Below, one piece after another: positions 10,327 through 39,907 of a stretch of 43,043 nucleotides of DNA. The stretch spans positions 1-43,043 of the forward strand of contig WQUW01000007.1 of NCBI GenBank assembly GCA_009781915.1. The letters run 5' to 3'. Each line of letters opens with the position of its first letter. The first letter of the stretch is position 1. The stretch comes from Treponema sp. (GTDB lineage: Bacteria; Spirochaetota; Spirochaetia; Treponematales; Breznakiellaceae). The notes under the pieces are model-generated. The model was not told where the DNA came from, ran no database searches, and saw nothing but the letters and a program-made list of their open reading frames with translations. A program made the position numbers and the translations under genes.

Positions 10327-10330
10327 AATC

Positions 10331-11754: not shown

Positions 11755-11774
11755 GAATAAAAGGAGAATGGCCA

Positions 11775-13593: not shown

Positions 13594-13680
13594 AACCGTA
13601 AAGGGGAAAAAACGCTAGGAGTTTGCAGACATTGACAGGGGGCACGTGGCTCCGGAGCGGGTTCTCTGGGCGGGAATGTT

Positions 13681-14151: not shown

Positions 14152-14158
14152 AACCCGG

Positions 14159-14956: not shown

Positions 14957-14978
14957 TCGTTCACTCCTTGCAGTAATG

Positions 14979-21360: not shown

Positions 21361-21509
21361 TAAGTATAGTATTTTGTAAATTTGTAACGGTTCCATTTAG
21401 CTGACTTATGTTGGTAATATTTTTTACCTATTCTCTTCCAAATATTGCCTTTAGATCCTTCCGCATTAGCCAGCCAAAAAAATCACGGGAAGATTTTTTT
21501 TAAGAACAT
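21361..21509 (-). pseudogene. Decayed 5' end of a coiled-coil/ATP-grasp paralogue
   Basis: Read on the minus strand, this stretch is clearly like codons about 672-711 of the neighbouring 1159-residue gene. It translates RDFFGWLMRKDLKAIFGRE, stop, VKNITNISQLNGTVTNLQNTI, against RDLFGKLRRISLKAIFGRE, L, VNNIANINQLNETIVNLQNTI. A TAG replaces a Leu codon, and the reading frame is lost before RDFF. An ATG at 21509 overlaps the upstream stop (TAATG), as if this had been the next gene of the operon. Homology ends near 21361. The remaining gap to fba (21273-21360) holds only a weak inverted repeat (21325-21330 with 21351-21356). Confidence 0.75.
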
Positions 21510-24500
21510 TATGCTTTTTGATCCTTATCAATTGGTAATTTTATCATTTCTCCCCAAATACCATCCCATTTAGCAGGTTCAAATTTTCCAATTCCTGCTG
21601 CATTTGTAAACGTCATTTCACCGAAATAAATCTTTGAATTTATAGAGTAAAAATCAACACGGACATGATAAAACCCTTCAGATAAATCTTTTGCCAAGGA
21701 TATCATTTCTTTTAAGTTTGCCGGAGGAGAGAGTGAATCATCGCCTTTAGGGTAATTTAATGAGAATGGCAATAGATTCCATTCTAGATCATAAATATTC
21801 CGTTTGTGATCTGTGTACCTGTCAAAATCTACCCATATAAACTTTGGTTCACCACCAAAACATACGAATCTATAATCTTTTAATTGTCCGCTCTCATCTA
21901 CCATATACTTTTCTGCGATAATTTTTGGTTTAATATCACGATAATGCAATTCAAGCCCTGCACGGTATGCAAAATTTGTACGCATGAAATCATCAAACCT
22001 GCTTTTCTTCTTTTCTTTATCAAATTCGGTTTTATCCTTTACAACAGCATTCCACGCACTGCCGTGATTTGCCTTCAATACAAACTGATTTGGAAGCATG
22101 TCAAAATCAATTTCATCAAAACTGTTATATACTCCCAAAAGATGAATCAAATACTCTTCTCCTATTTTGTCTTTAATCCAATCCCTTACCAAATATTTAT
22201 CAGCCAAACGTGTTTTAAGCGGTGTTGAATCATATAACTTAAGCCATTGGATTTTTTCATTAAAGGTACGGGGATTATTTAAATCCAATTTTTTGTTTGT
22301 TTTTTCAGCGTACCAATCAGATAATATTTCAGAGTACTTATTCTCATGAGCGTATTTTTGCACCCGATACCATGAATTTTTATTAAACTGCTCGTCCATT
22401 TTCTTCACACTTTCATTTACCGCATTGGTTCGCTCGTGTATTTTGTTGCTCAAATCATTCGCCTTCTGATCTAAGCCATCTACTTTTTGAGTAATATTAT
22501 CTGTCTTATGGGTCAAGATATCCACTTTCTGACTATAAATATCTATTTTCTGGTTAAAAATATCTTCTTTCTGATTGAAAATGTCAGTCTTTTGGCTTAA
22601 AACATCTGTTTTACCATCCAAGATATCAGCCTTTTTGTTCAAAATTACCGTATTCTGGTTTAAGGCATCTGTTTTACTGTTCAAATCGTTGATTTTTTTG
22701 TTTAATTCTTCTGTCCTTTGGTTTAAGCTGTCTGTCTTCTGAGTAAAGTTATCTAATTTCTGTTCCAACCTCTGTTCCAAATTGTTTGTCTTTTGGTTGA
22801 AGTTGCTTTCGATACGAGAAAATGCCTGCTTATGAAATTCACTATTTGCATTTATAGTATTTTGTAAATTTACAATGGTTTCATTCAACTGGTTTATATT
22901 GGCAATATTGTTTACCAACTCTCTTCCAAATATGGCCTTTAGGGATATCCGCCTTAGTTTACCAAAAAGATCACGAATGTCTAATTTTTTCATGGACTGC
23001 CTCTCCTTTAACATTATTTGTCTATCAGACTGTTCTATTTTATACTTTTTAAAACAACTTTGGTTAAAATAGTCAAACCACTCATCAGTATAATCATTTG
23101 TATATTTCCAAGGTTTATCTTTTGATGAAAAATGCAGGATAACGGCACTCTGTTCAACATCGCTTAATGAAGCATATTTTGATCCAAACAAATTATTGAG
23201 CTCGCCTATCGAAACCTTTCCGTGAGCAACAGCTCTTTTAAGGTTCAGGCACAAAAAATTGTATTTAATATCAAGAATTTCTATATTATTGTTGAATACG
23301 ATATTGAAAACATCTTGATCCATTAAATTAAAATTTGTCATATTCTTTTTAGTTTGCAGCAGTATATCGCATGATTTATCATCTCTAAGTTTTTTTAAAT
23401 TCAGTAACATCACTCCCGAATTGAAATAGTTAGTAACATTAATTTTTTTTAGTCTATCGTTGTAAATTATTCCAGTATCTCTGCATACAGCAGCGTAAAT
23501 ATTCTCTATATTTGTATTATACAGCATGGTTAAATCATCTTTGACCAAAATATCGCCATCTAGATAGAGTATTCTGTCTTCATTATGAATTAGATTTGGA
23601 ATCTCAAATTTTAGCAAGGCAGATATTGTCGCAATACAGCTTGCATTATTGTCATATGTATGCAAATTGTGGAATTTTCCCGATGAAGTTTTTATTATTT
23701 TTATTTCAACGCTGCTGTCTTTATACGACAGAAATTTTCTCCGGTTTTTTCGAAATAATTTGTCGCAAACAATATATATCCTATATCCCGTTGAGGCACT
23801 CTTGTTTTTTATGATTGATGTGATTGCAACTGCAGTAGGAATAACGAAATTATTGTCAGTAATAAAACATAATGGTATGATTTCTCTTTTCGGTTTTGTG
23901 CTGTTAAGCAGAGCGGATAAATTACCTAGGCTAGTAGTTTTTATTCTTTCTGCTGTGCTTTGCAAGCATTGTTGTTTGTCCCTATACTCTTCTTCGGTCA
24001 TATTACAGGCCAATCGCATGGCAACAGCCAAATTTTCTTGGTAAACAATACTGTTCTTTGTATTTAGGTGGTAAGCTTCGGCAAATTTTTGGTGAATTAC
24101 GGCTGGTTTAACAAAACCATAGACAAGTTGCATGGCCCCGGAAGAACAACGGGTTATATATTTTTCATGATCTATGTCTTCAGGATCAAGCAGGGCTAAA
24201 AGAAAATCTGCATTTTCCATTTCGCAATACATTTTTGGGAAATCTAGGCGCCCCTTAATTTCTATGTAAGGCGCCATAACGGGTGGAATGACAAACTCTT
24301 TTGATACAGCATTGCCAACTAATGATATTTTAAAATTCATTTTTGCGTTAATTAATTCTTGGACAGCAGAAAATAATAAATTATAATTTCTGCGATGAGC
24401 TTCAATATTCCCGACGCAGACGAAATTAGCAATTCGATTTTTCGGTGTAATGTTAACATTGCCAAAGAAGTGTGGGTTAACCATGACACGCCCGGAAAAA

Positions 24501-24988
24501 TCATTAAGAGAAATAACATTCGACTGATTTGCTGAATATTTTGCTACATTGTGTTCAACAAAGAAAAATTTTGCTTTACCAACGTTATTTTTCAATTTGT
24601 TAAATATTTTTTCCGCTTCCTTCACTGCGAAAAATGTATTTAACAAAATCATTTTATACCCCTGGAGTTTTGCGGCAGAAACTATAGGAATAAAATGCTC
24701 TGGCAACCATTGGTAAAGACGTAACTGCCTATTGTTGAAACGACAAAAGGTTTTTTCAAAAAATACATTTTCCCGGCATAGAATATCAACATTGTATCCA
24801 AGATCAATAAAGTGCTTTGCAAAACCAGGCAATGTTTCGGCATGCCATTTGTTAGGTTCGATAATTAATACGCTATTAAAGCGAACTGAAGCAGACATAA
24901 AATGCATATAAGGCTTTGGATAAATTTTTGATCCTTTAGTCAAACCGAAGAATTTTTGTAGCAGAAAAGTTCTAGCAGTTAATCTCAT
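21509..24988 (-). CDS. GT-B / GT8 / coiled-coil / TupA-like ATP-grasp protein
   Basis: An 1159-residue multidomain protein. Residues about 35-365 look like a GT-B glycosyltransferase (VCVGNIEAHRRNYNLLFSA, ISLVGN). Residues 370-645 are a GT8 transferase with metal motif DGD at 477-479 in LYLDGDIL, and HFSSKDKPWKY near 619-629. Residues about 693-870 are a heptad-repeat coiled coil. Residues 880-1159 resemble TupA-like ATP-grasp enzymes (KYSEILSDWYAEK, TFNEKIQWLKLYD, FVLKANHGSAWN, KDYRFVCFGGEPKF, YHVRVDFY). An internal ATG (M666, 22993) has a perfect ribosome site, so the coiled-coil/ATP-grasp half may also be made alone (494 residues). It overlaps the FkbM gene by 17 bases. Confidence 0.75.
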   Translation of the reverse strand: MRLTARTFLLQKFFGLTKGSKIYPKPYMHFMSASVRFNSVLIIEPNKWHAETLPGFAKHFIDLGYNVDILCRENVFFEKTFCRFNNRQLRLYQWLPEHFIPIVSAAKLQGYKMILLNTFFAVKEAEKIFNKLKNNVGKAKFFFVEHNVAKYSANQSNVISLNDFSGRVMVNPHFFGNVNITPKNRIANFVCVGNIEAHRRNYNLLFSAVQELINAKMNFKISLVGNAVSKEFVIPPVMAPYIEIKGRLDFPKMYCEMENADFLLALLDPEDIDHEKYITRCSSGAMQLVYGFVKPAVIHQKFAEAYHLNTKNSIVYQENLAVAMRLACNMTEEEYRDKQQCLQSTAERIKTTSLGNLSALLNSTKPKREIIPLCFITDNNFVIPTAVAITSIIKNKSASTGYRIYIVCDKLFRKNRRKFLSYKDSSVEIKIIKTSSGKFHNLHTYDNNASCIATISALLKFEIPNLIHNEDRILYLDGDILVKDDLTMLYNTNIENIYAAVCRDTGIIYNDRLKKINVTNYFNSGVMLLNLKKLRDDKSCDILLQTKKNMTNFNLMDQDVFNIVFNNNIEILDIKYNFLCLNLKRAVAHGKVSIGELNNLFGSKYASLSDVEQSAVILHFSSKDKPWKYTNDYTDEWFDYFNQSCFKKYKIEQSDRQIMLKERQSMKKLDIRDLFGKLRRISLKAIFGRELVNNIANINQLNETIVNLQNTINANSEFHKQAFSRIESNFNQKTNNLEQRLEQKLDNFTQKTDSLNQRTEELNKKINDLNSKTDALNQNTVILNKKADILDGKTDVLSQKTDIFNQKEDIFNQKIDIYSQKVDILTHKTDNITQKVDGLDQKANDLSNKIHERTNAVNESVKKMDEQFNKNSWYRVQKYAHENKYSEILSDWYAEKTNKKLDLNNPRTFNEKIQWLKLYDSTPLKTRLADKYLVRDWIKDKIGEEYLIHLLGVYNSFDEIDFDMLPNQFVLKANHGSAWNAVVKDKTEFDKEKKKSRFDDFMRTNFAYRAGLELHYRDIKPKIIAEKYMVDESGQLKDYRFVCFGGEPKFIWVDFDRYTDHKRNIYDLEWNLLPFSLNYPKGDDSLSPPANLKEMISLAKDLSEGFYHVRVDFYSINSKIYFGEMTFTNAAGIGKFEPAKWDGIWGEMIKLPIDKDQKA
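22379..22798 (-). repeat. Degenerate 21-bp repeats encoding a heptad coiled coil
   Basis: Residues about 731-870 of the 1159-residue protein repeat every seven residues with the pattern NQKTDxL, for about 19 heptads; the DNA shows the matching 21-bp period. Heptads near the middle (VLSQKTD, IFNQKED, IFNQKID, IYSQKVD) are the most alike. Changes in copy number would lengthen or shorten the rod without shifting frame. Confidence 0.8.
22991..23008 (-). promoter_or_regulatory. Internal ribosome site and ATG
   Basis: On the minus strand AAGGAG (23008-23003) is followed by nine bases and ATG (22993-22991), which starts MKKLDIRDLFGKL. It is as good as any start in the window and lies exactly at the junction between the GT8 part and the coiled-coil part. 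Confidence 0.65.
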
Positions 24989-25946
24989 AACATCGTCCGT
25001 TTAGCTTCCTATACAGTGGTTGAAATTCTTGCGGTACAAGAATTATATCACAATGTGCTCTTAAAAGAAGTTTATATCCCATTGTATTCATAAATTTAAC
25101 AACATCGCTATTTTCACGTGCTTCAATAGCTATAAACCCAAACGAATATTTGTCAAAATTTATTGACTTTAAAACATTCATCTCATGTCCTTCTGTATCG
25201 ATAGTCAAAAAATCAATATAATTCACATCAGGAAAATCTTTCATCATGTTGTTAAAGGTTATTGTGTCTATTATTTCAATTTTTACGGAACTGACCTTTT
25301 TTGCTTCATCGATATGTTTTGGCGTCATGGTATCTGCGATACCACTTCTGGTATCTCTTTCTGGAAACGAAATAAATTCGATTTGTTTGCGTTTATCAGA
25401 AATTGCAAATTTATATAACGCACAATTCCTGTGTTTAGATAAGCGTTTAAAAGCTTCCTCTTGAGGCTCAACACATATTCCCTTCCAGCCTAATTGTTCT
25501 GCCCAGAAGGTTGTGCTCCCGTTGCGTCCTCCGTTTGCTCCGATTTCAATATAAAACCCATCGCTTTTGCCCAAAAAAAATAAATAGGCCATAATATCTT
25601 GTGCAGCCTCTGCCGAGAAAAATATACCTTTCGCTTTAGCATTTCTCATATATTGTTGGTACGACTTTAATGGCAAAAATGTTTCCTTAAGATATCTTTG
25701 AACAATGTCTTTTCTGAAAGGCTCCAATGCATAAAAATCGTCCTGAAAAGAATTTTGATTTTTATTAAGCATAATTAATTTTCGAAGGACATTCCGCACT
25801 TTCCGTGGAAACCACGTAAGCATACGCCCCAAACGAAATGACCAAGAGGCAAGAAAGGCATCGCGTTCCTGCCGTAGTTGGTTTTGTTCTTCTAGCAGTC
25901 GATCGTAATCTTCATGTAACCGTTTCTTTTCGTTTTGCATTTGCAC
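24972..25946 (-). CDS. FkbM family methyltransferase with coiled-coil tether
   Basis: A 324-residue SAM-dependent methyltransferase. Residues 3-30 are a charged coiled coil, followed by SWSFRLGRMLTWFPRKVR (34-51), probably a basic amphipathic membrane or partner tether. The FkbM domain starts near 128, with SAM motif FYIEIGANGG (131-140), CVEP (158-161) and YIDFLTIDTEGHE. FkbM enzymes O-methylate sugars and other small molecules; here a sugar of the glycan is likely. The first codon given is GTG; the ATG two codons later (25940) has a better-spaced GAGGTG site and matches the start of the paralogous gene. The first 147 bases from that ATG are a duplicate of 26800-26946. Confidence 0.83.
   Translation of the reverse strand: MQMQNEKKRLHEDYDRLLEEQNQLRQERDAFLASWSFRLGRMLTWFPRKVRNVLRKLIMLNKNQNSFQDDFYALEPFRKDIVQRYLKETFLPLKSYQQYMRNAKAKGIFFSAEAAQDIMAYLFFLGKSDGFYIEIGANGGRNGSTTFWAEQLGWKGICVEPQEEAFKRLSKHRNCALYKFAISDKRKQIEFISFPERDTRSGIADTMTPKHIDEAKKVSSVKIEIIDTITFNNMMKDFPDVNYIDFLTIDTEGHEMNVLKSINFDKYSFGFIAIEARENSDVVKFMNTMGYKLLLRAHCDIILVPQEFQPLYRKLNGRCYEINC
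25794..25940 (-). repeat. 147-bp duplicated 5' cassette, copy A
   Basis: This is the first 147 bases of the FkbM gene counted from ATG 25940. It is very similar to 26800-26946, of the same length and position in the next methyltransferase gene. Similarity stops after the shared WFPRKVR codons, where the two enzymes diverge completely. Confidence 0.85.
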
Positions 25947-26109
25947 CTCATGGAATCTAATACTGCGACTATCTATAAATTTCTATATTGCCAACAAAAG
26001 ATATTTTAAACCGCATTTTTTACAATACTCTATGTTCGACAATGAAAAGTTTTGGTTTTCTAATGTTTTTTATATTATTATCATCTCTCGACCAATTCAG
26101 AACTCATTG

Positions 26110-26952
26110 CTACCTTTCCTTTTTTTCACAATAAAATATTGTATCATTGCCAATATTCATTTCCGTTTTTTTCACATTAGTCATCAATTCATTTGCCTTT
26201 ATTGGTTTAACAGTAAATCCAACTGAACGTAATCTATCAATAAAATCTGGGCCGTATGCTCTTACATGATCTTTTTGTCCGAAGGCTTTCAGCCGGCCCT
26301 CAGGTGTATTTATAGCATAATCTTCTTCTGTAATTTTTCGAATAATTGGTACAGTAAACATTGCCCAGCCAGTAGTTTTTAAGGTTCTATAAAACTCATT
26401 CATTGCCTTAATATCATCTATAACGTGCTCAAACACATGATTGCAAATTATTATATCAAATGTTTCTTCTGGGTAATCTATATTTGTTATGTCTAATTTT
26501 ATCATTGCCCTTGTATCATATAGATCAGCTGTTAAATACCCATCCTTGAAAATTACATTTAACTTATTCTTTAAGCAAGGCTCTGCGGCAATGTGTAGTA
26601 ATTTTTTATTTTTTCCCTTGTCTTTTGCTGTTTTTCTTTTTAAGAAAATCCATAATAATCTATGCCGCTCTAAAGAATTACAATAATTACACTGTGCCTT
26701 TTGACGTGAAACAATGCCGAAAGGTTTGAACTCTGATCTCTTATTGCAAATTGGACAATAATTCATGTTTTTGCTATTTTTCATATATCGGCGAATCCCC
26801 CGCACTTTCCGTGGAAACCAAGTGAGTATCCGCCCAATACGAAATGACCAAGAAGCAAGAATGGCATCACGCTCATACCGCAGTTGGTTTCGTTCTTCTA
26901 GCAGTCGATCGTACTCTTTATGTAGCTGTTTCTCTTCGTTTTGCATCTCCAT
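26110..26952 (-). CDS. Class I SAM methyltransferase with coiled-coil tether and zinc knuckle
   Basis: A 280-residue protein. Residues 3-50 are the same coiled coil and SWSFRIGRILTWFPRKVR tether as in the FkbM gene. A four-cysteine element follows (C66, C69, C88, C91 in CPIC and CNYC), then a class I methyltransferase core: LLHIAAEPCLKNKL, GYLTADLY, and the DIIICNHVFEHV loop near 166-177. Likely it methylates a sugar or glycan intermediate. Of two starts, the ATG at 26946 fits the ribosome site AGGAG better (six-base gap); AGGAG directly abuts the ATG at 26952. It is separated from FkbM by a 163-base AT-rich gap with no visible feature. Confidence 0.8.
   Translation of the reverse strand: MEMQNEEKQLHKEYDRLLEERNQLRYERDAILASWSFRIGRILTWFPRKVRGIRRYMKNSKNMNYCPICNKRSEFKPFGIVSRQKAQCNYCNSLERHRLLWIFLKRKTAKDKGKNKKLLHIAAEPCLKNKLNVIFKDGYLTADLYDTRAMIKLDITNIDYPEETFDIIICNHVFEHVIDDIKAMNEFYRTLKTTGWAMFTVPIIRKITEEDYAINTPEGRLKAFGQKDHVRAYGPDFIDRLRSVGFTVKPIKANELMTNVKKTEMNIGNDTIFYCEKKER
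26800..26946 (-). repeat. 147-bp duplicated 5' cassette, copy B
   Basis: Partner of 25794-25940, encoding the coiled coil and WFPRKVR tether. Both copies start at the ATG and have exactly the same length. Confidence 0.85.
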
Positions 26953-26991
26953 CTCCTAGAATTTTCCACACTCAAATTAAAACAGGACTCA

Positions 26992-27734: not shown

Positions 27735-27750
27735 AATCACTTTCCTATCA

Positions 27751-30384
27751 TCATAATTCACGTCTTGAAGCCAGAAGCTTGCGCAGTAAAGCAAGTAAAC
27801 CCGTCTTTTTTGCTAGCATAAGGAGCGCACGCAACAGAACCAGTATGCCGGTTTTTCCGGCGATGCGGCGCAGTAAGAGCATTGTACGGTAACTTCTGGA
27901 ATTCAGCGAATCAGTAAGGGCATTTATTGTATCATTTGCACACCGGATACGCTGGTGACCAGTTTGCAACAAGGCTATGTTGTTGGACACGGTATCGCTT
28001 GGCATGTGCCCTAATTTCCTCATAACAGAGCTGTCTTTGCCCATAATACCTTCAATAAGTGAGTTTTCCAGCAGCATATAAGACGGCCATAACAAATCCA
28101 TCCCATACTGGCTTTTCCAATACTCGATAGAACACAACTCTTCCAAAAAAGGGTTTGGCCAATATGTGTTTACAAGCGCGCGAAAAAAAACAAAGCCCGC
28201 AGGCAAATCGTGCGCCACCCATTCTTGATCAAAAAACAGGAACCCGCCGTCCACAAAAAAGCAGTTGCGCATATTCATATCGAAATATGCGTCTTTAAGA
28301 ATTACACCAAAATCAAGTTCCCGGCTTTCCAGCGGCAATCCTGTGCGTTCAATAAACCCTTCCCTTGAATCCGCAGCATCCGAGGAGCGGAGGATGAAGG
28401 CATAAAGGCGATCCAGCAATTCCTTCGCGCCGTCAATATTGCGTTTTCGCACTAGGTGTATAAACCGCTGCTCGACTGTTTCGTGCCGCATTATGGGCGT
28501 GGACAATACACCTTGCTCATACCGATGAGGCACAACTGGAACGCCTCGCTTCTCCAATATAGTTATGGCTTCAAAACAGCGCCTGATATGCTCTAGCGCT
28601 TTTGCATTGGCAGCGTATTTATAAAAGCGCTCACCGTCAAAACGTGTTGTTACCAGATACTCGTCCGAGCGGTTGCCATCCGTCAGCGCAAATAGCGTAT
28701 CGTCATAGGCGGCATTGTCAATCGAACACTCAATCAGAAATGAGTTTGCGAAAAAGGGAAAAACTCCGTTGCGAACGATTGCTTCCCGAACTTTGCCCTC
28801 GTCAGCAACGACTGGTAAGTCTTTCGTGTAATTATGGGAGTAATACAACGGCCCTCCCATTAGGTGCTGCTCTGCAGGTAAAAATTCATCCGTGAAAACC
28901 GAACGGGGGAGCTTATAGTCGGGCATGGGGTAGTAGAACTTCTGGTTCACAAGTCCTGCTTCGGACAAAAGAGCGCACAGCTCCTGCCTGTCAAACGTCA
29001 TGGCTTTTTTCGCCGCCCCGCCATGTGCAAAGCTGTTTATTGAATCGAATGGGACACCTGAATGATCCTCCCCTTCACCTGTCCAGTATTTCAAACCAAG
29101 CCTGTTCTCAATCGCAAGTATAATTTTGCCGCCGGGCGCAAGCAACTCTGTCAGCGCCTTTAAAAAATCAAGATGGGGTGTGGCGCTGCTTCCGTACACA
29201 CTTTGGTATTCCAAAACCCCAATTACGGTTATGTAGTCGTATTTTCTATCAAACCGCATTTGCGCAAAATCGCCTACCATAATCTCAAGGTTTTTATGCT
29301 TTCTGCATCTAATTTGAATGGCAGTGGCTCTTCTTTTAGACATTTCCACAGCCGTAACGTGCCCGCATTTTTCGCAAAACAGAGACGTAAGCGCACCCAT
29401 CCCGGCGCCGATTTCCAGTAACGCAGCCCCTGACCTAAAGCTGTACCAGTTTAGAAGATTTTTGCGTATCTGGGTCAGGTGATAAAAGACTGGCCAGTTA
29501 TCATCTTTTTCGAAAATACCGGAATAACATTCAGGTTCGTGGGTAAAAATGTAATCAAGAATTCTATCTTCTGCATCGCCGTCTGAATATTTGTCTTCAC
29601 CTTCGTAATATTGGAGGTTTACCGGTACAATAGGGCTTATACCACCCGAATTCACCAATTCTTTTTTTAACCATGCTCCGCCCCAATGGCTAACATTTGA
29701 AGCATTTTTTAAATAATACTTTTGATCATCTGTCATTTTATTGGGATCAAGATACCAATCAAGGTGGCGTGCCCAATAAGGCTGATATGTTCGATACCCC
29801 TTGCTAAGCCTATGGAATTTATAGCTCTTGCGGTACATACCAAAGGTCGTGTCAATTAACGCTTCTTGAAAACCAACATCACAATTTTTCCATTTTAGAA
29901 AAGATGGTTTTTTATGCCAAAACTGTTCATTATGGCGTTGAATAACTTCATTTTTTAGAGGGTAATAGTCTGGAATATCATCTATCCGGAGCATTGGCCC
30001 AACAACTTCAATCGACGGATTTGTATCAAGAATATGCGCATAAAAATCAATAATGTCATCACACTGTTGGACTAATGCAATATCAGGGTCGGTAACAATG
30101 TAATAAGGCGCATCATGTTCATTAAACCAATTTTCTATTGTCGCAGATACATTGTTTAACTCATAATCAAAATTTACCTTGGCGCTGGAGCGGTAAACTA
30201 AAACGCCTTCGCCTTCAAGCTGTTCCAAATAGTTGAGCAAAGGGACATATGAAGAGCAGTTGTCATGTATAACGATCTGAAATGGAGCTGCAATAAATTT
30301 CCTGAATGAATTGATACATTCCTGCAAAACAGTAACTCTATTGCAGCTAATGATAAATATGGGAATTTTTGAATCTTTGGTCAC
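27751..30384 (-). CDS. GT2-methyltransferase-kinase fusion, WbdD-like
   Basis: An 877-residue protein. Residues 1-280 are a GT2-like domain (IFIISCNRVTVLQECINSF, DPD at 99-101). Residues about 300-480 are a SAM methyltransferase (LLEIGAGMGALT at 322-333). Residues about 575-730 look like a protein-kinase-like fold: K589, DMNMRN (D702, N707), and FDQEW (D719), corresponding to catalytic lysine, loop and metal aspartate. A helical C-terminus follows, with SLNSRSYRTMLLLRR (826-840) and hydrophobic/basic repeats. Methyltransferase plus kinase plus helical tail is the layout of WbdD, which caps O9a-type O-antigen in E. coli; the added GT domain is unusual. Overlaps the upstream GT2 by four bases. 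Confidence 0.72.
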   Translation of the reverse strand: MTKDSKIPIFIISCNRVTVLQECINSFRKFIAAPFQIVIHDNCSSYVPLLNYLEQLEGEGVLVYRSSAKVNFDYELNNVSATIENWFNEHDAPYYIVTDPDIALVQQCDDIIDFYAHILDTNPSIEVVGPMLRIDDIPDYYPLKNEVIQRHNEQFWHKKPSFLKWKNCDVGFQEALIDTTFGMYRKSYKFHRLSKGYRTYQPYWARHLDWYLDPNKMTDDQKYYLKNASNVSHWGGAWLKKELVNSGGISPIVPVNLQYYEGEDKYSDGDAEDRILDYIFTHEPECYSGIFEKDDNWPVFYHLTQIRKNLLNWYSFRSGAALLEIGAGMGALTSLFCEKCGHVTAVEMSKRRATAIQIRCRKHKNLEIMVGDFAQMRFDRKYDYITVIGVLEYQSVYGSSATPHLDFLKALTELLAPGGKIILAIENRLGLKYWTGEGEDHSGVPFDSINSFAHGGAAKKAMTFDRQELCALLSEAGLVNQKFYYPMPDYKLPRSVFTDEFLPAEQHLMGGPLYYSHNYTKDLPVVADEGKVREAIVRNGVFPFFANSFLIECSIDNAAYDDTLFALTDGNRSDEYLVTTRFDGERFYKYAANAKALEHIRRCFEAITILEKRGVPVVPHRYEQGVLSTPIMRHETVEQRFIHLVRKRNIDGAKELLDRLYAFILRSSDAADSREGFIERTGLPLESRELDFGVILKDAYFDMNMRNCFFVDGGFLFFDQEWVAHDLPAGFVFFRALVNTYWPNPFLEELCSIEYWKSQYGMDLLWPSYMLLENSLIEGIMGKDSSVMRKLGHMPSDTVSNNIALLQTGHQRIRCANDTINALTDSLNSRSYRTMLLLRRIAGKTGILVLLRALLMLAKKTGLLALLRKLLASRREL

Positions 30385-31502
30385 AGTTCATTTTTCCCAA
30401 ACGAGATATTCTTTATTATTGAATGTCGAATCTTTAACAAAGCTCTAACTGCTTTGGTGTTTAATATCTTGTCTCTGCTATTTATCTCTTGCAGTAGCGA
30501 TGCGTTGTCATTTACCAGCTTCAATTCACGCTCTCTTATTTCTTTCAGGTTTTTATACACAATAAGCCGCTTGCCAGGCAAAACCGCATCCAGTATCTGT
30601 GCGCTCTCTGACCAGTACGCCAGCTTCGCCGTTACACAATGATCCCAAAGCCAAGCATAGGCATCGAATATTTCCTCGACTTCATCATTGAGTAATTTAG
30701 ATTCAAGAACCTTATTGAAGCAGAAAGACAAAAAAGCTGCGGCGCATTGACCCAATAACGCAGATTGCCCATTTTTGCCAAGTAGTTCCATATAGAGTTT
30801 ATACGCCTGATTTAGCCCCAAAAAATAGCTCTTTGAGCCTGAATATGAAATGCTTTCCAGATGCCTAGTGTATTTGTAGACGGGCTTGTCAATATAATAT
30901 GCGGTTTTGCAGGCAAGCAAATAGCTTAAAAAAAATACAACATCCTGTCCGGGAATACCGTGCGGCAAAGTAAGACTTTTCTCGCGGACAAGCGCAGTTT
31001 TGTATATTTTAGTAAAAAAGCCTCCTACCGGTACAAAAGATGCAAAATCACCGGGAAAGTGGAAAACCTTCTCCCCGTTGTCGAAAGCTTTATTTTTTTC
31101 AAGAAGAACCGTGCCTGCTGCATCCACTTCGCTAAAGTAACCGTAGGCAAAATCAACATCCGTACGTTCTATCGCATCATACAGCAGCCGGCAGGCATCT
31201 ATGGTAAACTCGTCGTCCGAATCGAGAATCATAAAATACTTCGCTTTAGCCAGCCCCAACGCAGCGTTTCTGGGCGCGCCGCCCGATCCGCTATTTTGGG
31301 GCAGGCGCACCGGTTCCACATTGGCATGCGCCCTGCCAAATTCCTGTATGATTTCCCAGCTTGTATCGGTGGAGCAGTCATCGGCAAAAATGACTTGCAG
31401 GTTTTCAAAACCTATGGTCTGGAGCTTAAGGGATTCAAACGCTCTTCTAAGAAATTTTTCTCTGTTGTATACGGCTATGATAATGCTGATTTTGTAATTC
31501 AC
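30381..31502 (-). CDS. Family 2 glycosyltransferase
   Basis: A 373-residue GT-A enzyme. It begins KISIIIAVYNREKFLRRAFESL, has FADDCSTD near 39-46 and the metal motif DSDD at 94-97, then GIPGQDVVFFLSYL as the acceptor/base region. It would add one sugar to the growing glycan on the inner membrane. The C-terminal 45 residues form a coiled coil (LKLVNDNASLLQEINSRDKIL) and end in a basic amphipathic stretch (NTKAVRALLKIRHSIIK), similar in kind to the tethers on neighbouring enzymes. Overlaps the next gene by four bases (ATGA). Confidence 0.87.
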   Translation of the reverse strand: MNYKISIIIAVYNREKFLRRAFESLKLQTIGFENLQVIFADDCSTDTSWEIIQEFGRAHANVEPVRLPQNSGSGGAPRNAALGLAKAKYFMILDSDDEFTIDACRLLYDAIERTDVDFAYGYFSEVDAAGTVLLEKNKAFDNGEKVFHFPGDFASFVPVGGFFTKIYKTALVREKSLTLPHGIPGQDVVFFLSYLLACKTAYYIDKPVYKYTRHLESISYSGSKSYFLGLNQAYKLYMELLGKNGQSALLGQCAAAFLSFCFNKVLESKLLNDEVEEIFDAYAWLWDHCVTAKLAYWSESAQILDAVLPGKRLIVYKNLKEIRERELKLVNDNASLLQEINSRDKILNTKAVRALLKIRHSIIKNISFGKNEL

Positions 31503-31513
31503 GCTACTTTCTC

Positions 31514-33700
31514 TTATTCAAAACAAGCTTCCAAGAGCTTATAAGCGCTTTTCTCTGGGTAATACCCGCATATATCTCCCGCCGCTTGATATGCCAGCTT
31601 ATATAAATACTCATGATCATCAATAAGGCGGCGCAAAGCCTTTAGGCAAGCGGCTTTATCCGTTGAATCCACTACAATTCCGTTCTTTCCGTCAACAACA
31701 AACTCTGTAGAGCCGCCGTTTTTGGGAACTATTACCCCACATCCACAAGCCATAGCTTCCATTGATGTTAATCCCATAGCCTGGAAAGAAGAGAAATCCG
31801 CAAAAACATCTACACAAGACAATAACGATGCCATCTCATATCTACTAAGCTTTCCAAGATTGATTACTTGCGGATCTTTATAGTTTGCATTCCAGAAATC
31901 CTTATCGCAAAATGACTCTTTCGGATCTGAACCAAAGACTAATATCACTGCCTTGTCACCGTATGTTTTAGCTATTTCATTCATAACTTCCAACGTCAAC
32001 TCTGGTGCCCGCCTGGGACTATCAGGCCTAACCATAGCAGCGATAATCGTTTTATCCCGGTTCGGAAAAAGCTTTCTGGGACAATATAGATCAATGTCTA
32101 CACTTTTTCCTATGACTGTAGCTTTGGCTCCTGTCATATGTTCAACAATTAAACGATTCCATTCGGTTTTCGTTATATGTGTCATTTCAGGTATGGATGT
32201 ATAAGATTTAATGGCTTTTCCATACTCTGGATCTCCCTCTTCTAAAAAGTAGGGCTCAAAGTCCTGTATATAATAAGCGGGGCGTGTTTTTATTATACCA
32301 AGACTGCTAAAATCGCATTCTTGCACAGTATAATACGCAGTTGCGCATACAATATCAAATTCACTTGCAAATTTCCGGAAAGAGCCATGTCTATCACCGT
32401 AAATAACGGGAATGTCCAAATCGGGATAACTAGCCTCAAAGCCGTTCCTAAATCTTTTAAGATTATATATCCTTACATCTATGCCCATTTTTATCATGCT
32501 GCGGGCTTCCTGTATTATTACATTACCCCCACCGCCAGCACTATTCGCGTGTAAAAGAAAAAGAATGCGTTTCCCTACCCACCGCTCTCTTGCGTTCTTA
32601 ATAAGACGCTCTCGTTCCGCTACAATTCTCGTTCTTGTGCGTATGCCTTCCAATACAAAGTTATACTTCATAATATGGACGCTTGTGTCTAACAGCGCAT
32701 CGCCATGTTTTTTTCGTAATTTCACGCCATTCTCATTGCACAGAGCAATTCTTCTTTCATCTGAATAACTTTTTGACTGGGCATGAAAAATAAAGGTGTC
32801 ATCTGCAAGCGCTAATTGAAATCCGGCTTTACCGGCTCTAAGATTATAATCGTCTTCTTCCCCAAAACCATTGCCAAAATTCTCTTCGTCGAAATACCCA
32901 ATTGAATCAATAACTGATCTATGAATCATTAAGCAAAACCCATTAAGCAGGGGGAGCCTTGGATATAACTGTTTTGCTCCTTTATCTAATAACTCAGAAA
33001 ACTGTTCTAGGCCAATGTCCTCAGGCAGTCTATTATGCGCCCAATCTCCATTCCCATTAGAAACCTCAGGTACTGATTGCCATGACGCTGTGTTTGATAA
33101 AGCACTGACAATGCCAATATTATCTCCGCTTTTTTGGCATTTTATCATTTTATCAAGCCAGCCTTCAGTAACAATGGTATCGCTGTTCAGAAGAAGACAA
33201 TACTCCGCATCGGAAAACTTCAACCCAATATTTGCCGCGCGTGTATAGCCAGAGGCATATTCATTTCGAAATAATTTAACGTTTGGGCGTTCCATTAAAA
33301 GCGATATCAAATAATCTCTTGTTTGTTCGCCACTTCCATCATCTACCAATATAATACGGAATGGTTCTAAAGTAAATTTGAATACAGATTCAATACAGTG
33401 TTTCGCATCTTCATAAGCGTTGTGAACGCATATTATAATATCGATAGTTTCTGTATGCCTCGATGCCGGTTTCCGGAAATTCAAAGGTGGAATTTGACCG
33501 CAATATATCTGGCGGGCATCATTGTCCGCAAACGCCAAAACAGGAGCAACCCGTACATTACTATTAAGCGCCCTCTTAATTTTTCCTTTTATCCCCTTTA
33601 GCCCATCATATCTAATCTGTTGAATTACTTTTTTGATATACCCATTTGATATATACCAGGGTAAGTTAAATAAAAATCTTGCCAAAGAATAAGGTTTCAT
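31514..33700 (-). CDS. Bifunctional GT2-GT4 glycosyltransferase
   Basis: A 728-residue protein with two transferase domains. Residues about 85-330 are GT2 (DIIICVHNAYEDAKHCIESV, ILVDDGSGEQT, LLLNSDTIV, NGFGEEDDYNLR). Residues about 375-728 are GT4 of the GT-B fold (GKRILFLLHANSAGGGGNVI, AYYIQDFEPYF, AAMVRPDSPRRAPEL, and EAMACGCGVIVPKNGGSTE near 648-666 for the donor sugar phosphate). The GT4 part resembles WsaF-like rhamnosyltransferases, which would suit the rml genes here, but that is inference. The N-terminus carries a basic YDGLKGIKGKIKRAL segment. No clear ribosome site precedes the ATG. Confidence 0.85.
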   Translation of the reverse strand: MKPYSLARFLFNLPWYISNGYIKKVIQQIRYDGLKGIKGKIKRALNSNVRVAPVLAFADNDARQIYCGQIPPLNFRKPASRHTETIDIIICVHNAYEDAKHCIESVFKFTLEPFRIILVDDGSGEQTRDYLISLLMERPNVKLFRNEYASGYTRAANIGLKFSDAEYCLLLNSDTIVTEGWLDKMIKCQKSGDNIGIVSALSNTASWQSVPEVSNGNGDWAHNRLPEDIGLEQFSELLDKGAKQLYPRLPLLNGFCLMIHRSVIDSIGYFDEENFGNGFGEEDDYNLRAGKAGFQLALADDTFIFHAQSKSYSDERRIALCNENGVKLRKKHGDALLDTSVHIMKYNFVLEGIRTRTRIVAERERLIKNARERWVGKRILFLLHANSAGGGGNVIIQEARSMIKMGIDVRIYNLKRFRNGFEASYPDLDIPVIYGDRHGSFRKFASEFDIVCATAYYTVQECDFSSLGIIKTRPAYYIQDFEPYFLEEGDPEYGKAIKSYTSIPEMTHITKTEWNRLIVEHMTGAKATVIGKSVDIDLYCPRKLFPNRDKTIIAAMVRPDSPRRAPELTLEVMNEIAKTYGDKAVILVFGSDPKESFCDKDFWNANYKDPQVINLGKLSRYEMASLLSCVDVFADFSSFQAMGLTSMEAMACGCGVIVPKNGGSTEFVVDGKNGIVVDSTDKAACLKALRRLIDDHEYLYKLAYQAAGDICGYYPEKSAYKLLEACFE

Positions 33701-33742
33701 AATCCGGTTATGCTATTATTGTATGGTTCATAATTTTTCGGG

Positions 33743-35584
33743 TCATTCTATATAATAATCTGCTCTATCAAGTGAGAAATTGCAATTATAGTAGGGATCT
33801 CTCTGAACAAGCTCTTTTCCCCATTTCTCTTTAAACAAAGCAATTTCCTGCGCAAGCACATTTTGTTTCTCAGGCGTATCCGGATATCCTCGTGTTTTTG
33901 ATTCATGGTGGTAAGCTTCGGCAAAAGGTGTCCACACTATCAAAAAATTTGCCTTACGGATTTTCATGCATAAATCAACATCATTAAACGAAGCGGGAAA
34001 CTCTTGTGAAAAGCAACCAACACCTTCATATACCGACCTTCTAATCATAACACAGGCAGCGGTAACCGCACTCATATTTTGTACAATTTTTAATCTTGCC
34101 ATATAGCCCACAGCCTCACGAGGAGCGAGGTGAAAAATATGTCCTGCTAATCCATGCAACCCTAATATAACGCCAGCATGTTGAATTGTATCATCCGGAT
34201 AATATAATTTTATTCCAACAGCTCCAACATCATTTCGCTGGCTGTACATGAGCATTTCTTCAATCCAGTTAGGCGTTATTATTTTTACATCATTGTTCAT
34301 GAGGATTAACTGTGTGCCTCTTGAATATTTAAAGCCAAAATTATTCAATTCGCTGTGATTAAATCCTATGCCTTCCCAATATACAACACGGATGTTTTGA
34401 TATTTTTTTAACTCTTCATAATAAGCAAACGTAGCATTGTCTGTACTATTATTTTCAACTATGATAACCTCATAATTACTATATGTTGTTTTCTCCATAA
34501 TTGAAGCGAGGCAATCTTGCAGTAATAAGATATTATCTTTATTTGGAATAATTATTGAAACTAACGGTCTTTCAATTAAATCATAAACTATCCTGTAAAA
34601 AACTGGTGACTCGATTGTGCTCTCAACTTCAGCGGTAATTCCATGTTTTAATAACTGCTCCTTTATAGCATTTTTTCCGGCAGTAATCGCATATAACTTC
34701 GTACTTGTATCAGATGCAGCAGAATTTATATGGCTTCTCCAGAAGTATAATAATTTTGGGATATGAACTATTTTAGATGCGATCTCTGTATATCGAAGTA
34801 TCAAATCATGATCTTGACTTCCGTCAAATTCACTCCTAAATATACCTGCTTTTTCTTTTGTTTCTTTTGAAAATACCGAAAAATGGCAGATATAATTGTA
34901 GGAACGTAAAGTATCAATCGCATAATCTGGTTTAAAATGTTTTAAAGTAATGTTTCTATCATGGTTAGTAAAAGTTGCTTCGTCAGTATAGATAAAATCA
35001 GCATCTTCATAACATATTGCTTTCATAACTTCATAGAGAGCGGAAGGGTGTAGCATATCATCATGATCCAAAAGCCCGAAGTAATCACCCGTTGCCATTT
35101 CTATGGCTCTGTTGGAATTCCCCGATATACCCTCATTTTTGTCAAGTTTTTTGTATTTTATTCTTTCATCTTTTCTAGCATACTCTCTGCAAATACGCTC
35201 GACCTTTCCGTGTTCTTTGTCACTTCCATCGGCAAGACATAATTCCCAATTATTATATGTTTGATGCCTGACAGAGTCTATCATTTCTTTTAGGAATTGT
35301 TCTGGCGTATTATACAGAGGGGTAATAATACTTATCAATATCTGTTTCGGGAAAATTGTATTTCTTTGTGACAATAATTCGTGTTCTGTTAAGCAAATAT
35401 GCTCGTCAAGTGAAAGTAATCGCTTTCGCTGGCGTTTTTTATAATCTTTAACCCTATTCAGGGTCTCTCTAATTCCAACTCTCTTTAAGGATAATAATCC
35501 TTTCGCAAAAAGACGCAAAACCTTATTAAGCCTGTCTCGTTCTCGATTAAAAATTATGTTATCATCGGGACTTTTATAAACCAT
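33743..35584 (-). CDS. Tandem GT2 glycosyltransferase, AT-rich copy
   Basis: A 613-residue enzyme with two GT2 domains. The first (about 80-300) has ISIITPLYNTPEQFLKEMIDS and metal motif LLDHDDML with DHDD at 173-176. The second (about 345-600) has VSIIIPNKDNILLLQDCLASI, IVENNSTDN, LMNNDVKI and SFNDVDLCMKIRKANF. It is a close paralogue of the gene at 40883-42727, but its DNA is much richer in A and T. The N-terminal SLKRVGIRETLNRVKDY helix is common in this type of enzyme. The ATG lacks a good ribosome site; AGAGGAGAG lies instead before a 12-codon out-of-frame ORF at 35612. Confidence 0.85.
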   Translation of the reverse strand: MVYKSPDDNIIFNRERDRLNKVLRLFAKGLLSLKRVGIRETLNRVKDYKKRQRKRLLSLDEHICLTEHELLSQRNTIFPKQILISIITPLYNTPEQFLKEMIDSVRHQTYNNWELCLADGSDKEHGKVERICREYARKDERIKYKKLDKNEGISGNSNRAIEMATGDYFGLLDHDDMLHPSALYEVMKAICYEDADFIYTDEATFTNHDRNITLKHFKPDYAIDTLRSYNYICHFSVFSKETKEKAGIFRSEFDGSQDHDLILRYTEIASKIVHIPKLLYFWRSHINSAASDTSTKLYAITAGKNAIKEQLLKHGITAEVESTIESPVFYRIVYDLIERPLVSIIIPNKDNILLLQDCLASIMEKTTYSNYEVIIVENNSTDNATFAYYEELKKYQNIRVVYWEGIGFNHSELNNFGFKYSRGTQLILMNNDVKIITPNWIEEMLMYSQRNDVGAVGIKLYYPDDTIQHAGVILGLHGLAGHIFHLAPREAVGYMARLKIVQNMSAVTAACVMIRRSVYEGVGCFSQEFPASFNDVDLCMKIRKANFLIVWTPFAEAYHHESKTRGYPDTPEKQNVLAQEIALFKEKWGKELVQRDPYYNCNFSLDRADYYIE

Positions 35585-35760: not shown

Positions 35761-36873
35761 TTACCGCTTCCCGTAGTTCTCTTCTATCCAGCGCCGGCAG
35801 TCTCCACTGCGTATGCCATTAACCCATTCCTTGTTGGACAAATACCAGTCCACGGTGCGTTCAAGCCCTTGCCGGAAACTAACGGCTTGTTTCCAGCCGA
35901 GTTCGGCCTTGATTTTGGAACAGTCGATGGCATAGCGGCGGTCATGACCGGGGCGGTCTTTGACATACGTAATGGTAGAACGCATTGCCACGGCTTGCGC
36001 TGCCGGAGCGTCCGAATTTGATTTGGCGGCAACGACGTCAATAAGCTCATTAAGCAGCCTTATATTTTCCCATTCGTTTTCGCCGCCGATGTTGTACGTT
36101 TCCCCTGCCCTGCCCTTTTCCATAATTGCCCAAACCGCACTGTTGTGGTCTTCCACATACAGCCAATCGCGGACATTTTTTCCGTCCCCATAAACCGGAA
36201 GCGGCTTGCCTTCCAGCATATTTGAAATCATCAGGGGAATCAACTTTTCAGGAAACTGGTAGGGGCCGTAATTGTTGGAACAATTGGAAAGGGTAACCGG
36301 CAGCCCATAGGTGTGATGGTACGCCATTGCCAGATGATCGCTTGCCGCTTTGCTGGCCGAATATGGCGAGCGGGGATCGTAGGCGGTAGTTTCCGTAAAA
36401 TAGCCGGTTTCCCCAAGGGAACCGTACACTTCATCGGTACTGACATGGTGAAAAAGCACATCGCTCCCGAATGAGCCGTCGCTTTTTTTCCAGGCACTTC
36501 GGGCAACGTCCAGAAGGGTAAACGTTCCCAAAACATTGGTTTTAATAAACGCTTCGGGGCCCAAAATTGAACGGTCTACATGGCTTTCTGCCGCAAAGTG
36601 CACCGCCGTATCAATATCGTATTTTCTAAAAATAGCTTCGACAAGGGCACGGTTGCCAATATCGCCCTTCTCAAAGAAATACCTTGTCCCTCCGAATTTT
36701 TCATCTATTTCTTTAAGGCTTGCGATATTCCCAGCGTACGTAATAGCATCCAGATTAACAATACGGCCCTTGAATTCAGGCGCTACAGTTCCCTGTCCAA
36801 AAAGAAAACGAATAAAATTGACGCCTATAAATCCAGCGCCGCCCGTAACAAGAATGTTTGTTAATTTACGCAT
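35761..36873 (-). CDS. rmlB: dTDP-glucose 4,6-dehydratase
   Basis: A 370-residue extended SDR enzyme that turns dTDP-glucose into dTDP-4-keto-6-deoxyglucose, the second step to dTDP-L-rhamnose. NAD motif GGAGFIG is at 11-17, catalytic STDEVYG at 145-151, and Y171-SAS-K175. FAAESHVDRSI and NNYGPYQFPEKLIPL are family hallmarks. Length is normal (about 340-370). Its ATG overlaps the rmlD stop by eight bases. It is the last rml gene of the set. Confidence 0.95.
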   Translation of the reverse strand: MRKLTNILVTGGAGFIGVNFIRFLFGQGTVAPEFKGRIVNLDAITYAGNIASLKEIDEKFGGTRYFFEKGDIGNRALVEAIFRKYDIDTAVHFAAESHVDRSILGPEAFIKTNVLGTFTLLDVARSAWKKSDGSFGSDVLFHHVSTDEVYGSLGETGYFTETTAYDPRSPYSASKAASDHLAMAYHHTYGLPVTLSNCSNNYGPYQFPEKLIPLMISNMLEGKPLPVYGDGKNVRDWLYVEDHNSAVWAIMEKGRAGETYNIGGENEWENIRLLNELIDVVAAKSNSDAPAAQAVAMRSTITYVKDRPGHDRRYAIDCSKIKAELGWKQAVSFRQGLERTVDWYLSNKEWVNGIRSGDCRRWIEENYGKR

Positions 36874-37762
36874 ATTCGGAAAGGAACCTCTTTAAACTTT
36901 CGTCCCATGCGGGAATGGGTATTCCCAGCGCCTTCTTGATTTTGCCCTTGTCCAGCACCGAATACGCGGGGCGTTTTACCTTTGCCGGAAAATCGGCGCT
37001 GGCGCACGGCTTAACTTCGCAACCTTTCGGCAAAATACCCAAGGCCTTGGCCCGCTCGTAAATCTCCTTGGCAAAATCAAACCACGTAATTTCACCTTCG
37101 TTTGTATAGTGATACACCCCATAGGGAATTGTTTTGCCTTCGCCCGACAAACGAATGAAAGCGCAGATTGCCCCTGCAAGATCGCGCGCCCATGTGGGGC
37201 TGCCCCGCTGATCGTTGACAACGGAAACGCTCTCCCGCTCTTTCATAAGCCTGAGCATGGTATGTACAAAATTGTTGCCGTGCTTGCCGTAAAGCCACGC
37301 TGTCCGGATAATGTACGACGCTTCGTTTTCTTCAAAAAGCTTTATTTCCCCGTCCCGCTTTGTCATGCCGTAAACGCCTATGGGATCGGCAACGTCTTCC
37401 TCGGTATAGGGTTTGTTTCCCTTGCCGTTAAACACATAATCGGTTGAAATGTGAATTACCTTGGCGTTTAGCTCGCTCGCCAACGCGGCTATATTTCCCG
37501 GGCCCTCGACATTAAGCAGGCGGCAGATTTCTATATCATCCTCCGCCTTGTCAACCGCTGTATAGGCGGCGCAGTTAATTATCCAGCCGGGAGGCGGTGT
37601 ATTGCCAAACCGCGTTTGGGCAAAATCCCTAAGGGCAGGGCCGGTAATATCTACCTCGCGTCCCGTCCCGATAAATGGAGCGCCGGATTTTTTCAGAAGC
37701 AGGGCCAGAAGCTGGGCAAGCTCTGTTCCCAGCATACCTTTATTGCCGATAAGCCATATCAT
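36866..37762 (-). CDS. rmlD: dTDP-4-dehydrorhamnose reductase
   Basis: A 298-residue SDR that makes dTDP-L-rhamnose in the final step. Nucleotide motif GNKGMLG is at 6-12, INCAAYTAVDKAE at 62-74, STDYVF at 106-111, and the catalytic pair Y131 and K135 in YGMTK. NDQRGSPTWARDLA is typical. The start overlaps the rmlC stop (ATGA). Confidence 0.95.
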   Translation of the reverse strand: MIWLIGNKGMLGTELAQLLALLLKKSGAPFIGTGREVDITGPALRDFAQTRFGNTPPPGWIINCAAYTAVDKAEDDIEICRLLNVEGPGNIAALASELNAKVIHISTDYVFNGKGNKPYTEEDVADPIGVYGMTKRDGEIKLFEENEASYIIRTAWLYGKHGNNFVHTMLRLMKERESVSVVNDQRGSPTWARDLAGAICAFIRLSGEGKTIPYGVYHYTNEGEITWFDFAKEIYERAKALGILPKGCEVKPCASADFPAKVKRPAYSVLDKGKIKKALGIPIPAWDESLKRFLSEYA

Positions 37763-38298
37763 TGCGGGTTAAACCCCGGTAGCTTTCTGTCCTTGTCCGA
37801 TAAAACATACTCCATGCCCAAGTCGGGCCATGTAATGCCGATAAAGGGATCGTTCCAAACAATGCCGCCCTCATCTTCGGGGTAGTAAAAATCCGTGCAT
37901 TTATAGGCAAAAATCGCCCCGTCGCTTAAAGCTAAAAAACCGTGGGCGAACCCCGGCGGTATATAAAACTGGTTTTGCTTTTCGCCGCTTAAAATAACGG
38001 CGTGCCACTTACCACAGGTTGACGAGCCGGGGCGTATGTCCACCGCTACGTCAAAAACCTCGCCCTGTATGGCCCGCACCAGTTTTCCCTGAGGCCGCTG
38101 CCTTTGGAAGTGCAAGCCCCGGAGCGTACCTTTGCCCGAGCGGGACTGGTTATCCTGTACAAACGGGAGCGTAAGCCCGGCGGCGTTAAAGTCCCGCTCG
38201 GAATAACTTTCAAAGAAATAGCCCCGCTCATCGCCAAATACTTTCGGCTGTATTTCATAAAGGCCGGGAATTGGGCATGGTGTAAAAGTAAACGGCAT
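37759..38298 (-). CDS. rmlC: dTDP-4-dehydrorhamnose 3,5-epimerase
   Basis: A 179-residue cupin epimerase, third step of dTDP-L-rhamnose synthesis. FGDERGYFFESY opens the fold, the catalytic histidine is H63 in LRGLHFQ, and YIPPGFAHGFLAL with Y132 and Y138/Y139 completes the site. Length is normal. Its ATG shares bases with the rmlA stop (TAATG). Confidence 0.95.
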   Translation of the reverse strand: MPFTFTPCPIPGLYEIQPKVFGDERGYFFESYSERDFNAAGLTLPFVQDNQSRSGKGTLRGLHFQRQRPQGKLVRAIQGEVFDVAVDIRPGSSTCGKWHAVILSGEKQNQFYIPPGFAHGFLALSDGAIFAYKCTDFYYPEDEGGIVWNDPFIGITWPDLGMEYVLSDKDRKLPGFNPQ

Positions 38299-39173
38299 TA
38301 AGTATTCTCCGCGATATACTTTAAATATTCACCGTATTCGGCCTTATAATCCGCCGCAAGCCGCAAAAGGTCTTCCTTTTTTATCCAGCCGTTGGCGTAG
38401 GCTATTTCCTCTATGCAGGAAACATACATTCCCTGCCGCTTCTGTATGGTTTCTATGAAGTTGGCGGCTTCCAAAAGGCCATCGCAAGTGCCGGTATCAA
38501 GCCAAGCCATGCCCCGGCCCAGAGTTTCCACGGAAAGTTTGCCCATCGCAAGATATGCGTTGTTGACTGCCGTAATTTCAATTTCTCCCCTTGCGGACGG
38601 CTGTACATTTTTGGCTATATCGATTACCGCGTTATCATAAAAATAAAGACCGGGGACAGCGTAATGGCTTTTGGGGCGGGCGGGCTTTTCTTCAATGGAA
38701 AGCGCCTTGCCGCTTTCGTCAAATTCCACCACCCCGTAGGATTTTGGATCCTTAACGTAATACCCGAAAATCGCCCCTCCCCCATCCTTTTCGATCCGGC
38801 TTTTTGTCTCCCTGAGCGTGCGCCCAAATCCACGCCCGTAAAAAACATTGTCGCCCAGCACCATAACGCAGTTTTCAGTGCCGATAAAATCTTCGCCAAC
38901 AATAAAAGCATCGGCAAGGCCCTTGGGGCTTTCCTGAACCTTGTAGTCAAAGTTCATGCCAAGCCAGCCGCCGCTCCCAAACAGCTCCCTGAAAAGCGGA
39001 ATATCCCTTGGGGTCGAGATAATCAGAATCTCCCGAATCCCGGCAAGCATCAGCACCGAAAGGGGGTAATAGACCATCGGCTTGTCGTACAGGGGTAGAA
39101 TCTGTTTGGATACCGCTTTTGTGACAGGAAAGAGCCTAGTGCCGGAACCCCCGGCTAAAATAATGCCTTTCAT
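38298..39173 (-). CDS. rmlA: Glucose-1-phosphate thymidylyltransferase
   Basis: A 291-residue nucleotidyltransferase that joins dTTP and glucose 1-phosphate, first step of the rhamnose pathway. LAGGSGTRL is at 6-14, then [40 protein letters not shown] and [14 protein letters not shown]. The start has GGAG upstream and overlaps the wzt stop (ATGA). Confidence 0.95.
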
Positions 39174-39907
39174 TTGTAATGCTCCGTATAAGCCGCGCAG
39201 ATTTCTTTAGCGCTACCGGTCATTACTACTTCGCCCTTGCGTAGCCAAAGCGCCTTTTCGCATAGCTGCTCTACCATAGTGTTACTGTGGGACACAAACA
39301 ACAGCGTTACGTTGCCTTGCAACATTTTCTGTATCCGGCTTGCGCACTTGCGCTGGAAAGCAGCGTCCCCCACAGAAAGAGCCTCGTCAATAATAAGTAT
39401 TTCGGGCTTTACCACGGTAGCCACAGAAAAAGCCATGCGGGCCTGCATACCGGTAGAGTAATTTTTTATGGGCATATCCATAAACTCCGCAAGTTCGGAA
39501 AATTCTACGATCTCGTCATAGTGTTCCTGCATAAAAGCCCGGCTGTGGCCAAGCAATGCTCCCTGCAGGTAGATATTTTCCCCGGCTGTTAATTCCGGGT
39601 CAAACCCGGCCCCCAGTTCCAGTATCGGGGATATGTTCCCATTTACCCTGACTGAACCTGTGGTTGGAGCGATAACACCGCAGATAAGCCGTAACAAGGT
39701 TGATTTCCCCGCTCCGTTACGGCCTACTATGCCCCAAGCCTCGCCCCGTTTTATTTCAAGGCTGATATTTTTAAGGGCAAGAAACTCCCTGAAATGGAGC
39801 TGGCCCTTAAAAAATTTCACAAAATATTCCTTGATGTTGTCGATTTTTTGCGAGGCTATGTTAAAACGCACTGTAGCGTCTTCTACTTGGATGACTGTCT
39901 CTTTCAA
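39170..39907 (-). CDS. wzt: Polysaccharide ABC transporter ATPase (short Wzt)
   Basis: A 245-residue ATPase that powers glycan export. Walker [10 protein letters not shown] is at 62-70, the signature YSTGMQ at 150-155, Walker B LIIDEA at 171-176, and [16 protein letters not shown] matches the O-antigen/teichoic-acid export subfamily. It ends right after the nucleotide-binding domain, so it lacks the C-terminal carbohydrate-binding domain of E. coli O9a-type Wzt, which reads a capped chain end. The start is TTG with GAGG seven to eight bases upstream; no ATG fits. Confidence 0.9.

Follow-up and report, generated by a model that had tools for sequence, protein, structure and literature searches.

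The window analysed here is an entire contig of 43 kb (43,043 nucleotides) from a 97%-complete draft Treponema genome of 2.8 Mb in which no SSU rRNA turned up, and most of its second half is taken up by a cluster of glycan genes (Table 1). Among them is the gene for an 877-aa protein, the start of which overlaps the stop of the upstream GT2 gene by 4 nt, so that the two are translationally coupled. The protein consists of a GT-A/GT2-like glycosyltransferase (GT; residues 1 to ~235), a class I methyltransferase (MT; ~256-505), a kinase-fold domain (~556-785) and a short helical tail. A preliminary description of this DNA, made from the letters alone, had already placed a GT2-like domain in front of a methyltransferase, a kinase and a helical tail in one chain, and the single reading frame, Pfam and AF2 models all bear this out.

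Table 1. Features of the glycan cluster and domains of the 877-aa protein (positions in the window)
Feature	Position	Strand	Basis
Whole gene, 877 aa	27751..30384	-	one uninterrupted ORF running from a GTG at 30384 to a stop at 27751
N-terminal GT-A/GT2-like glycosyltransferase, residues 1-235	29680..30384	-	Pfam, AF2 fold, invariant residues, stand-alone relatives
Class I SAM-dependent methyltransferase, residues 256-505	28870..29619	-	Pfam; residue mapping and conservation
Kinase-fold domain, residues 556-785	28030..28719	-	conservation, AF2, APH/AmiN-type fold
C-terminal tail, residues 786-877	27754..28029	-	composition, hydrophobic moment, heptad heuristic; inference
GT2 glycosyltransferase, immediately upstream, overlapping the 877-aa gene	30381..31502	-	Pfam
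GT2-GT4 bifunctional glycosyltransferase	31514..33700	-	Pfam
Tandem GT2-GT2 glycosyltransferase	33743..35584	-	Pfam
rmlB, rmlD, rmlC, rmlA (dTDP-rhamnose synthesis)	35761..39173	-	Pfam
Wzt-type ABC ATPase, 245 aa, without C-terminal carbohydrate-binding domain	39170..39907	-	
Wzm-type ABC permease	39957..40748	-	
Tandem GT2-GT2 glycosyltransferase	40883..42727	-	Pfam
Downstream low-GC modification genes: MT11 methyltransferase, FkbM methyltransferase, GT8-TupA ATP-grasp fusion	21509..26952	-	Pfam, composition

The cluster is mosaic in composition (GC 0.33-0.52) and looks like a mosaic island, judging from its sequence. Positions 21509-35584 form a low-GC stretch (0.33-0.44) between housekeeping genes (0.53-0.55) and the rml and Wzt genes (0.48-0.52). 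Two other products encoded there deserve mention: a 1159-aa protein (21509-24988) that combines a GT8 glycosyltransferase with a TupA-like ATP-grasp domain and a long stretch resembling a coiled coil, and, within the glycan cluster, a 151-aa ORF (26992-27447) with a sub-threshold HepT-like match.

In the kinase-fold domain the window protein has no Pfam or NCBIfam match, and the kinases found in a profile search of the PDB were not significant matches. The AF2 model of residues 556-800, built from a 76-row alignment, is a kinase fold (pLDDT 91.2, pTM 0.87), as the preliminary description had supposed for the region 575-730. Among solved structures it comes closest to aminoglycoside and macrolide phosphotransferases and to amicoumacin kinase, the best being APH(3')-Ia (Z 12.9, 192 residues, 4.0 A) and AmiN (Z 11.6), and on the strength of the model we assign the domain to the aminoglycoside-phosphotransferase/AmiN type. 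The four residues originally singled out are correctly placed and are kept, not missing, in homologues: K589 of beta-3 in 76 of 81, the catalytic D702 and N707 in all 81, and D719 of the metal loop in 80 of 80. The same loop, a DxEW motif (D719-x-E721-W722), also has E721 in 80 of 80 and W722 in 76 of 80. Conservation of this kind across 81 homologous sequences is not chance. At the alphaC position, where protein kinases have their glutamate, this family shows no conserved Glu; a His, H599, is conserved in 70 of 81.

The methyltransferase is recognized by several Pfam models above their cut-offs at residues ~313-480. ORF6 of Klebsiella pneumoniae O7, an MT-kinase-coiled coil-GT2-GT2 protein, represents the second of the known types of methylphosphate terminator and is distinct from WbdD according to its authors; in vitro it makes 3-phospho- and methylphospho-rhamnose, D441A abolishes the phosphorylation, and the closest solved relative of its kinase is AmiN (PMC11231755). 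ORF6-O7 itself was compared by its published residue positions. A Pseudomonas asturiensis plasmid protein (L005), with MT and kinase N-terminal and GT2-GT2 C-terminal, was used as its stand-in, because it has Y28, Y66, G91, G93, E112 and Y158 at exactly the ORF6-O7 numbers and D443 for D441. All of these SAM-site residues map through L005 onto identical ones in the window protein (Y266, Y301, G326, G328, E347 and Y393, respectively), and the catalytic Asp onto D702. With hhalign, the kinase profile gives a probability of 93 against L005. The MT-kinase of the window protein is thus, by sequence, of the O7 ORF6 type. Besides the six SAM-site residues and an unannotated APH/AmiN-like kinase with the same catalytic Asp, the two have in common an ABC-transporter, dTDP-rhamnose cluster and the presence of GT modules in the same polypeptide. 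They differ in that O7 carries two GT2 modules at the C-terminus, past a coiled-coil ruler, whereas the window protein has a single N-terminal GT of another family, a short tail, no immunoglobulin-like CBM that we could see, and a partner Wzt without a carbohydrate-binding domain (CBD).

The preliminary description had likened the layout to that of WbdD, and part of that comparison stands. The order MT-kinase-helical tail is shared with E. coli O9a WbdD (PMC3482155; L100:12967-15093), as is the proposed kind of product, a methylphosphate on the terminal sugar, which characterized cases of both types write (PMC3482155). The likeness does not extend to homology of the kinases: against E. coli HS WbdD the kinase profile reaches an hhalign probability of 0.2 (E 0.37), and BLASTP with the whole protein gives E 0.14, over an unrelated stretch, on which grounds homology to the WbdD kinase was rejected. 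The absence of WbdD from the structural matches listed for the kinase model was given no weight. The methyltransferases are weakly related (hhalign probability 61), at the generic Rossmann level. WbdD is moreover a 708-aa protein without a GT and with a 250-residue coiled-coil C-terminus, against a tail of ~92 residues after the kinase here. The idea of a genuine WbdD homologue preceded by a GT is therefore scarcely credible; the contrast between the two profile probabilities points to an enzyme that would work like WbdD with a kinase that is not of the WbdD type.

In the tail, at most about 30 residues (804-833) are heptad-like, by a crude heuristic that gives low scores on relatives too, and hydrophobic and basic segments follow. 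From this sequence an extended coiled-coil ruler after the kinase is likely missing, and the tail is possibly membrane-associated.

The glycosyltransferase at the other end is harder to place. Scanned over the whole protein, Pfam PF00535 (GT2) scores 20 bits; for residues 1-260 alone it scores 23.4 bits, barely at the cut-off of 23.3. The AF2 model of the same residues (pLDDT 82.8) is a GT-A fold with a DxD motif, with Z 12-14 to GnT-I, SpsA, TarP and RmlT. In an alignment of 22 sequences the DxD aspartates D99 and D101 never vary, nor do H207 and W210; D178 is also listed among the residues of the domain. The family is small: 393 genomes of the phylum yielded one stand-alone relative (L016, 275 aa), and others form the C-terminal half of a GT2-GT protein (L017) and part of a TPR-GT protein (L134). 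It is present in two of 39 genomes carrying the MT-kinase and absent from 37. Members are also found in 24 IMG/VR viral contigs (L101-L124). In every fused homologue examined, including L005 and the same-family spirochaete protein of L131, the GT modules follow the kinase on its C-terminal side, and by sequence they belong to a different GT family from the one at the N-terminus here. The fusion of a GT to a terminator, put forward at first as a novelty, is already found in O7 ORF6 (PMC11231755); what is new in the window protein is the N-terminal position of the GT and its family.

Third-position GC also changes along the gene, from 0.26-0.40 over codons 1 to ~280 to 0.47-0.59 from codon ~281, a step near the GT/MT join that is suggestive, though not proof, of a young chimera. 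The GT-MT-kinase order was met once, in this one draft genome; a single-sequence scan of genome contigs, viral contigs, plasmids and phages found no close homologue of the full-length fusion, nor did a sample of ~300-390 genomes of the phylum (Spirochaetota). With no second copy seen, a composition step near the junction and weak internal start candidates (TTG at codon 243, GTG at codon 244), one might suspect an assembly or frame artefact, or an MT-kinase that is additionally made separately from the internal start. We regard this as very improbable, since the ORF is continuous and in frame, with the join at a domain boundary and neither an N run nor a stop, and misassembly rarely joins two genes in frame exactly at a domain edge.

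The MT-kinase part itself is widespread. A genome scan gave 320 relatives, of which the best 80 are mostly from Lachnospiraceae and other Bacillota, Paenibacillus and Sulfurovum, and the homologues align across both domains. At most of ~90 homologous loci, no more than 200 bp separate a wzt gene from the gene for the MT or MT-kinase. A tree of the MT sequences places that of the window with two from Bacillota, L020 and L025 (100/90), and three MT sequences from its own taxonomic family form a clade of their own, away from it. The nearest neighbour, from the Lachnospiraceae locus L020 (57% identity), is likewise a fused MT-kinase, in a Wzm-Wzt cluster with a short Wzt (256 aa) and two RgpF rhamnan proteins; it differs in that an N-terminal GT is absent and its C-terminal part has a long helical region plus one more domain (1355 aa). 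The locus of the same-family genome G569 (L131) has rmlADBC, Wzm, a short Wzt (53% identical), MT, kinase, GT2 and GT4, and it counts in favour of the main reading given below; there, however, the MT is a separate 322-aa protein in another well-supported clade, and GT2-GT4 are attached C-terminally to the kinase.

The transporter departs from the systems that have been studied, in which the CBD of Wzt reads the methylphosphate cap and is essential for export (PMC9445017). The best NCBIfam model for the window Wzt is the galactan-type one, at 231 bits, under that model's cut-off of 400. At the settings used, Wzt_C (PF14524) had no match in the window's own draft genome and none was found in three same-family genomes carrying the kinase, results compatible with a divergent CBD or with one in the genome's missing 3%. 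Short Wzt proteins (~244-262 aa) occur in the window and at L020, L026, L028, L047, L051 and L131; at most other loci the Wzt beside the MT gene has 420-560 aa.

With the gene beside Wzm/Wzt and rmlABCD, the phosphorylating and methylating role that the preliminary description proposed is likely, by analogy, and the 877-aa protein is most likely a writer of methylphosphate on a rhamnose-containing glycan. The APH-like kinase would move a phosphate from ATP to a sugar hydroxyl of a lipid-linked rhamnose-containing glycan, probably at the non-reducing-end rhamnose (in O7 it is C3 of the terminal rhamnose that is phosphorylated; PMC11231755), and the methyltransferase would next methylate that phosphate with SAM as donor. 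The N-terminal GT would belong to this assembly complex too, its simplest task there being the addition of one defined sugar near the modified place. This reading, an O7 ORF6-type MT-kinase with an extra GT-A domain in front, seems to us somewhat better than an even proposition. The cap, if there is one, would more likely limit length or decorate the end than license export, because the Wzt has no cap-reading domain. Set against this reading are the Wzt without a CBD, the lack of an evident long ruler, the unconserved alphaC glutamate and the neighbourhood of one close relative, L021 (Velocimicrobium porci, 1-15365), in which fliD, flagellin genes and DUF3880 glycosyltransferases are located a few kb away from the MT-kinase. 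That gene arrangement suggests that the L021 enzyme serves flagellin glycosylation and not O-antigen export, and hence that chain termination is not the role of every family member.

The L021 locus thereby strengthens the serious rival, in which the enzyme decorates a sugar with phosphate or methylphosphate without ending the chain, on a side group of the repeat, a short oligosaccharide or a protein-bound glycan, with export independent of it. A CBD-less Wzt of the galactan type, a tail with no evident ruler (by the heuristic above), the MT-kinase of L019 beside LicD and PEP-mutase genes, and downstream FkbM and MT11 methyltransferases suggestive of a decorated glycan would all suit such an enzyme. 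The Wzm/Wzt and tandem-GT2 context, and the wzt gene adjoining most homologues, speak for termination, as does the fact that ORF6-O7, the sole characterized member of the family, terminates chains (PMC11231755); on balance decoration seems to us the less likely of the two. For the glycosyltransferase, a tentative alternative, to which we give somewhat less than even weight, is that it is an adapter or side-branch enzyme fused by chance, with no linked step of last sugar and then cap. Its family occurs alone or with other modules, in ORFs that have no MT-kinase, it is missing from nearly all MT-kinase genomes (37 of the 39), and the composition step would fit a recent joining. But the fusion sets the GT beside the cap-writing sites, and characterized terminators keep their polymerizing GTs at the far end of the coiled coil (PMC11231755), so that, for a GT adjoining the terminator, a part in adding the capping sugar is a better fit than polymerization. 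The fullest form of the capping proposal, close to what was first suggested for this protein, is a single-chain machine in which the GT adds the last sugar and the kinase and MT make the methylphosphate end, which a CBD-less transporter could not read, so that the cap would set the length or the structure of the end but would not license export; this we consider doubtful, and rather unlikely in all its parts together.

In the window and several relatives a putative cap-writing enzyme adjoins an exporter without a cap-reading domain, which makes the separability of capping and export licensing directly testable. The O7-type MT-kinase, characterized in one Klebsiella serotype, is also extended here to spirochaetes, many Bacillota and Campylobacterota, groups in which the kinase, having no Pfam model, tends to stay unannotated.

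Some minor observations on the homologues may be added. MT and kinase are separate ORFs, divided by one in-frame stop at a nearly constant place, at L011, L033, L039, L049, L057, L059, L060, L062, L064, L068-L071, L081, L087, L091, L092 and L095. The frequency of this split is probably a ranking bias, at least in part, because loci of this kind gain in rank when tblastn carries a single match across an in-frame stop, and it was set aside; stop-codon readthrough and recurrent fission are other candidate explanations. The MT-kinases of L074 (labelled Methanobrevibacter) and L083 (Chloroflexota, Thermoflexaceae; next to L098) are nested among those of Bacillota, and from their sequences these contigs are likely mis-binned or mislabelled. 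On a contig from human faeces labelled "unverified phage", the methyltransferase contains an in-frame TAG (L012:462-464), which looks like a nonsense mutation or an error.
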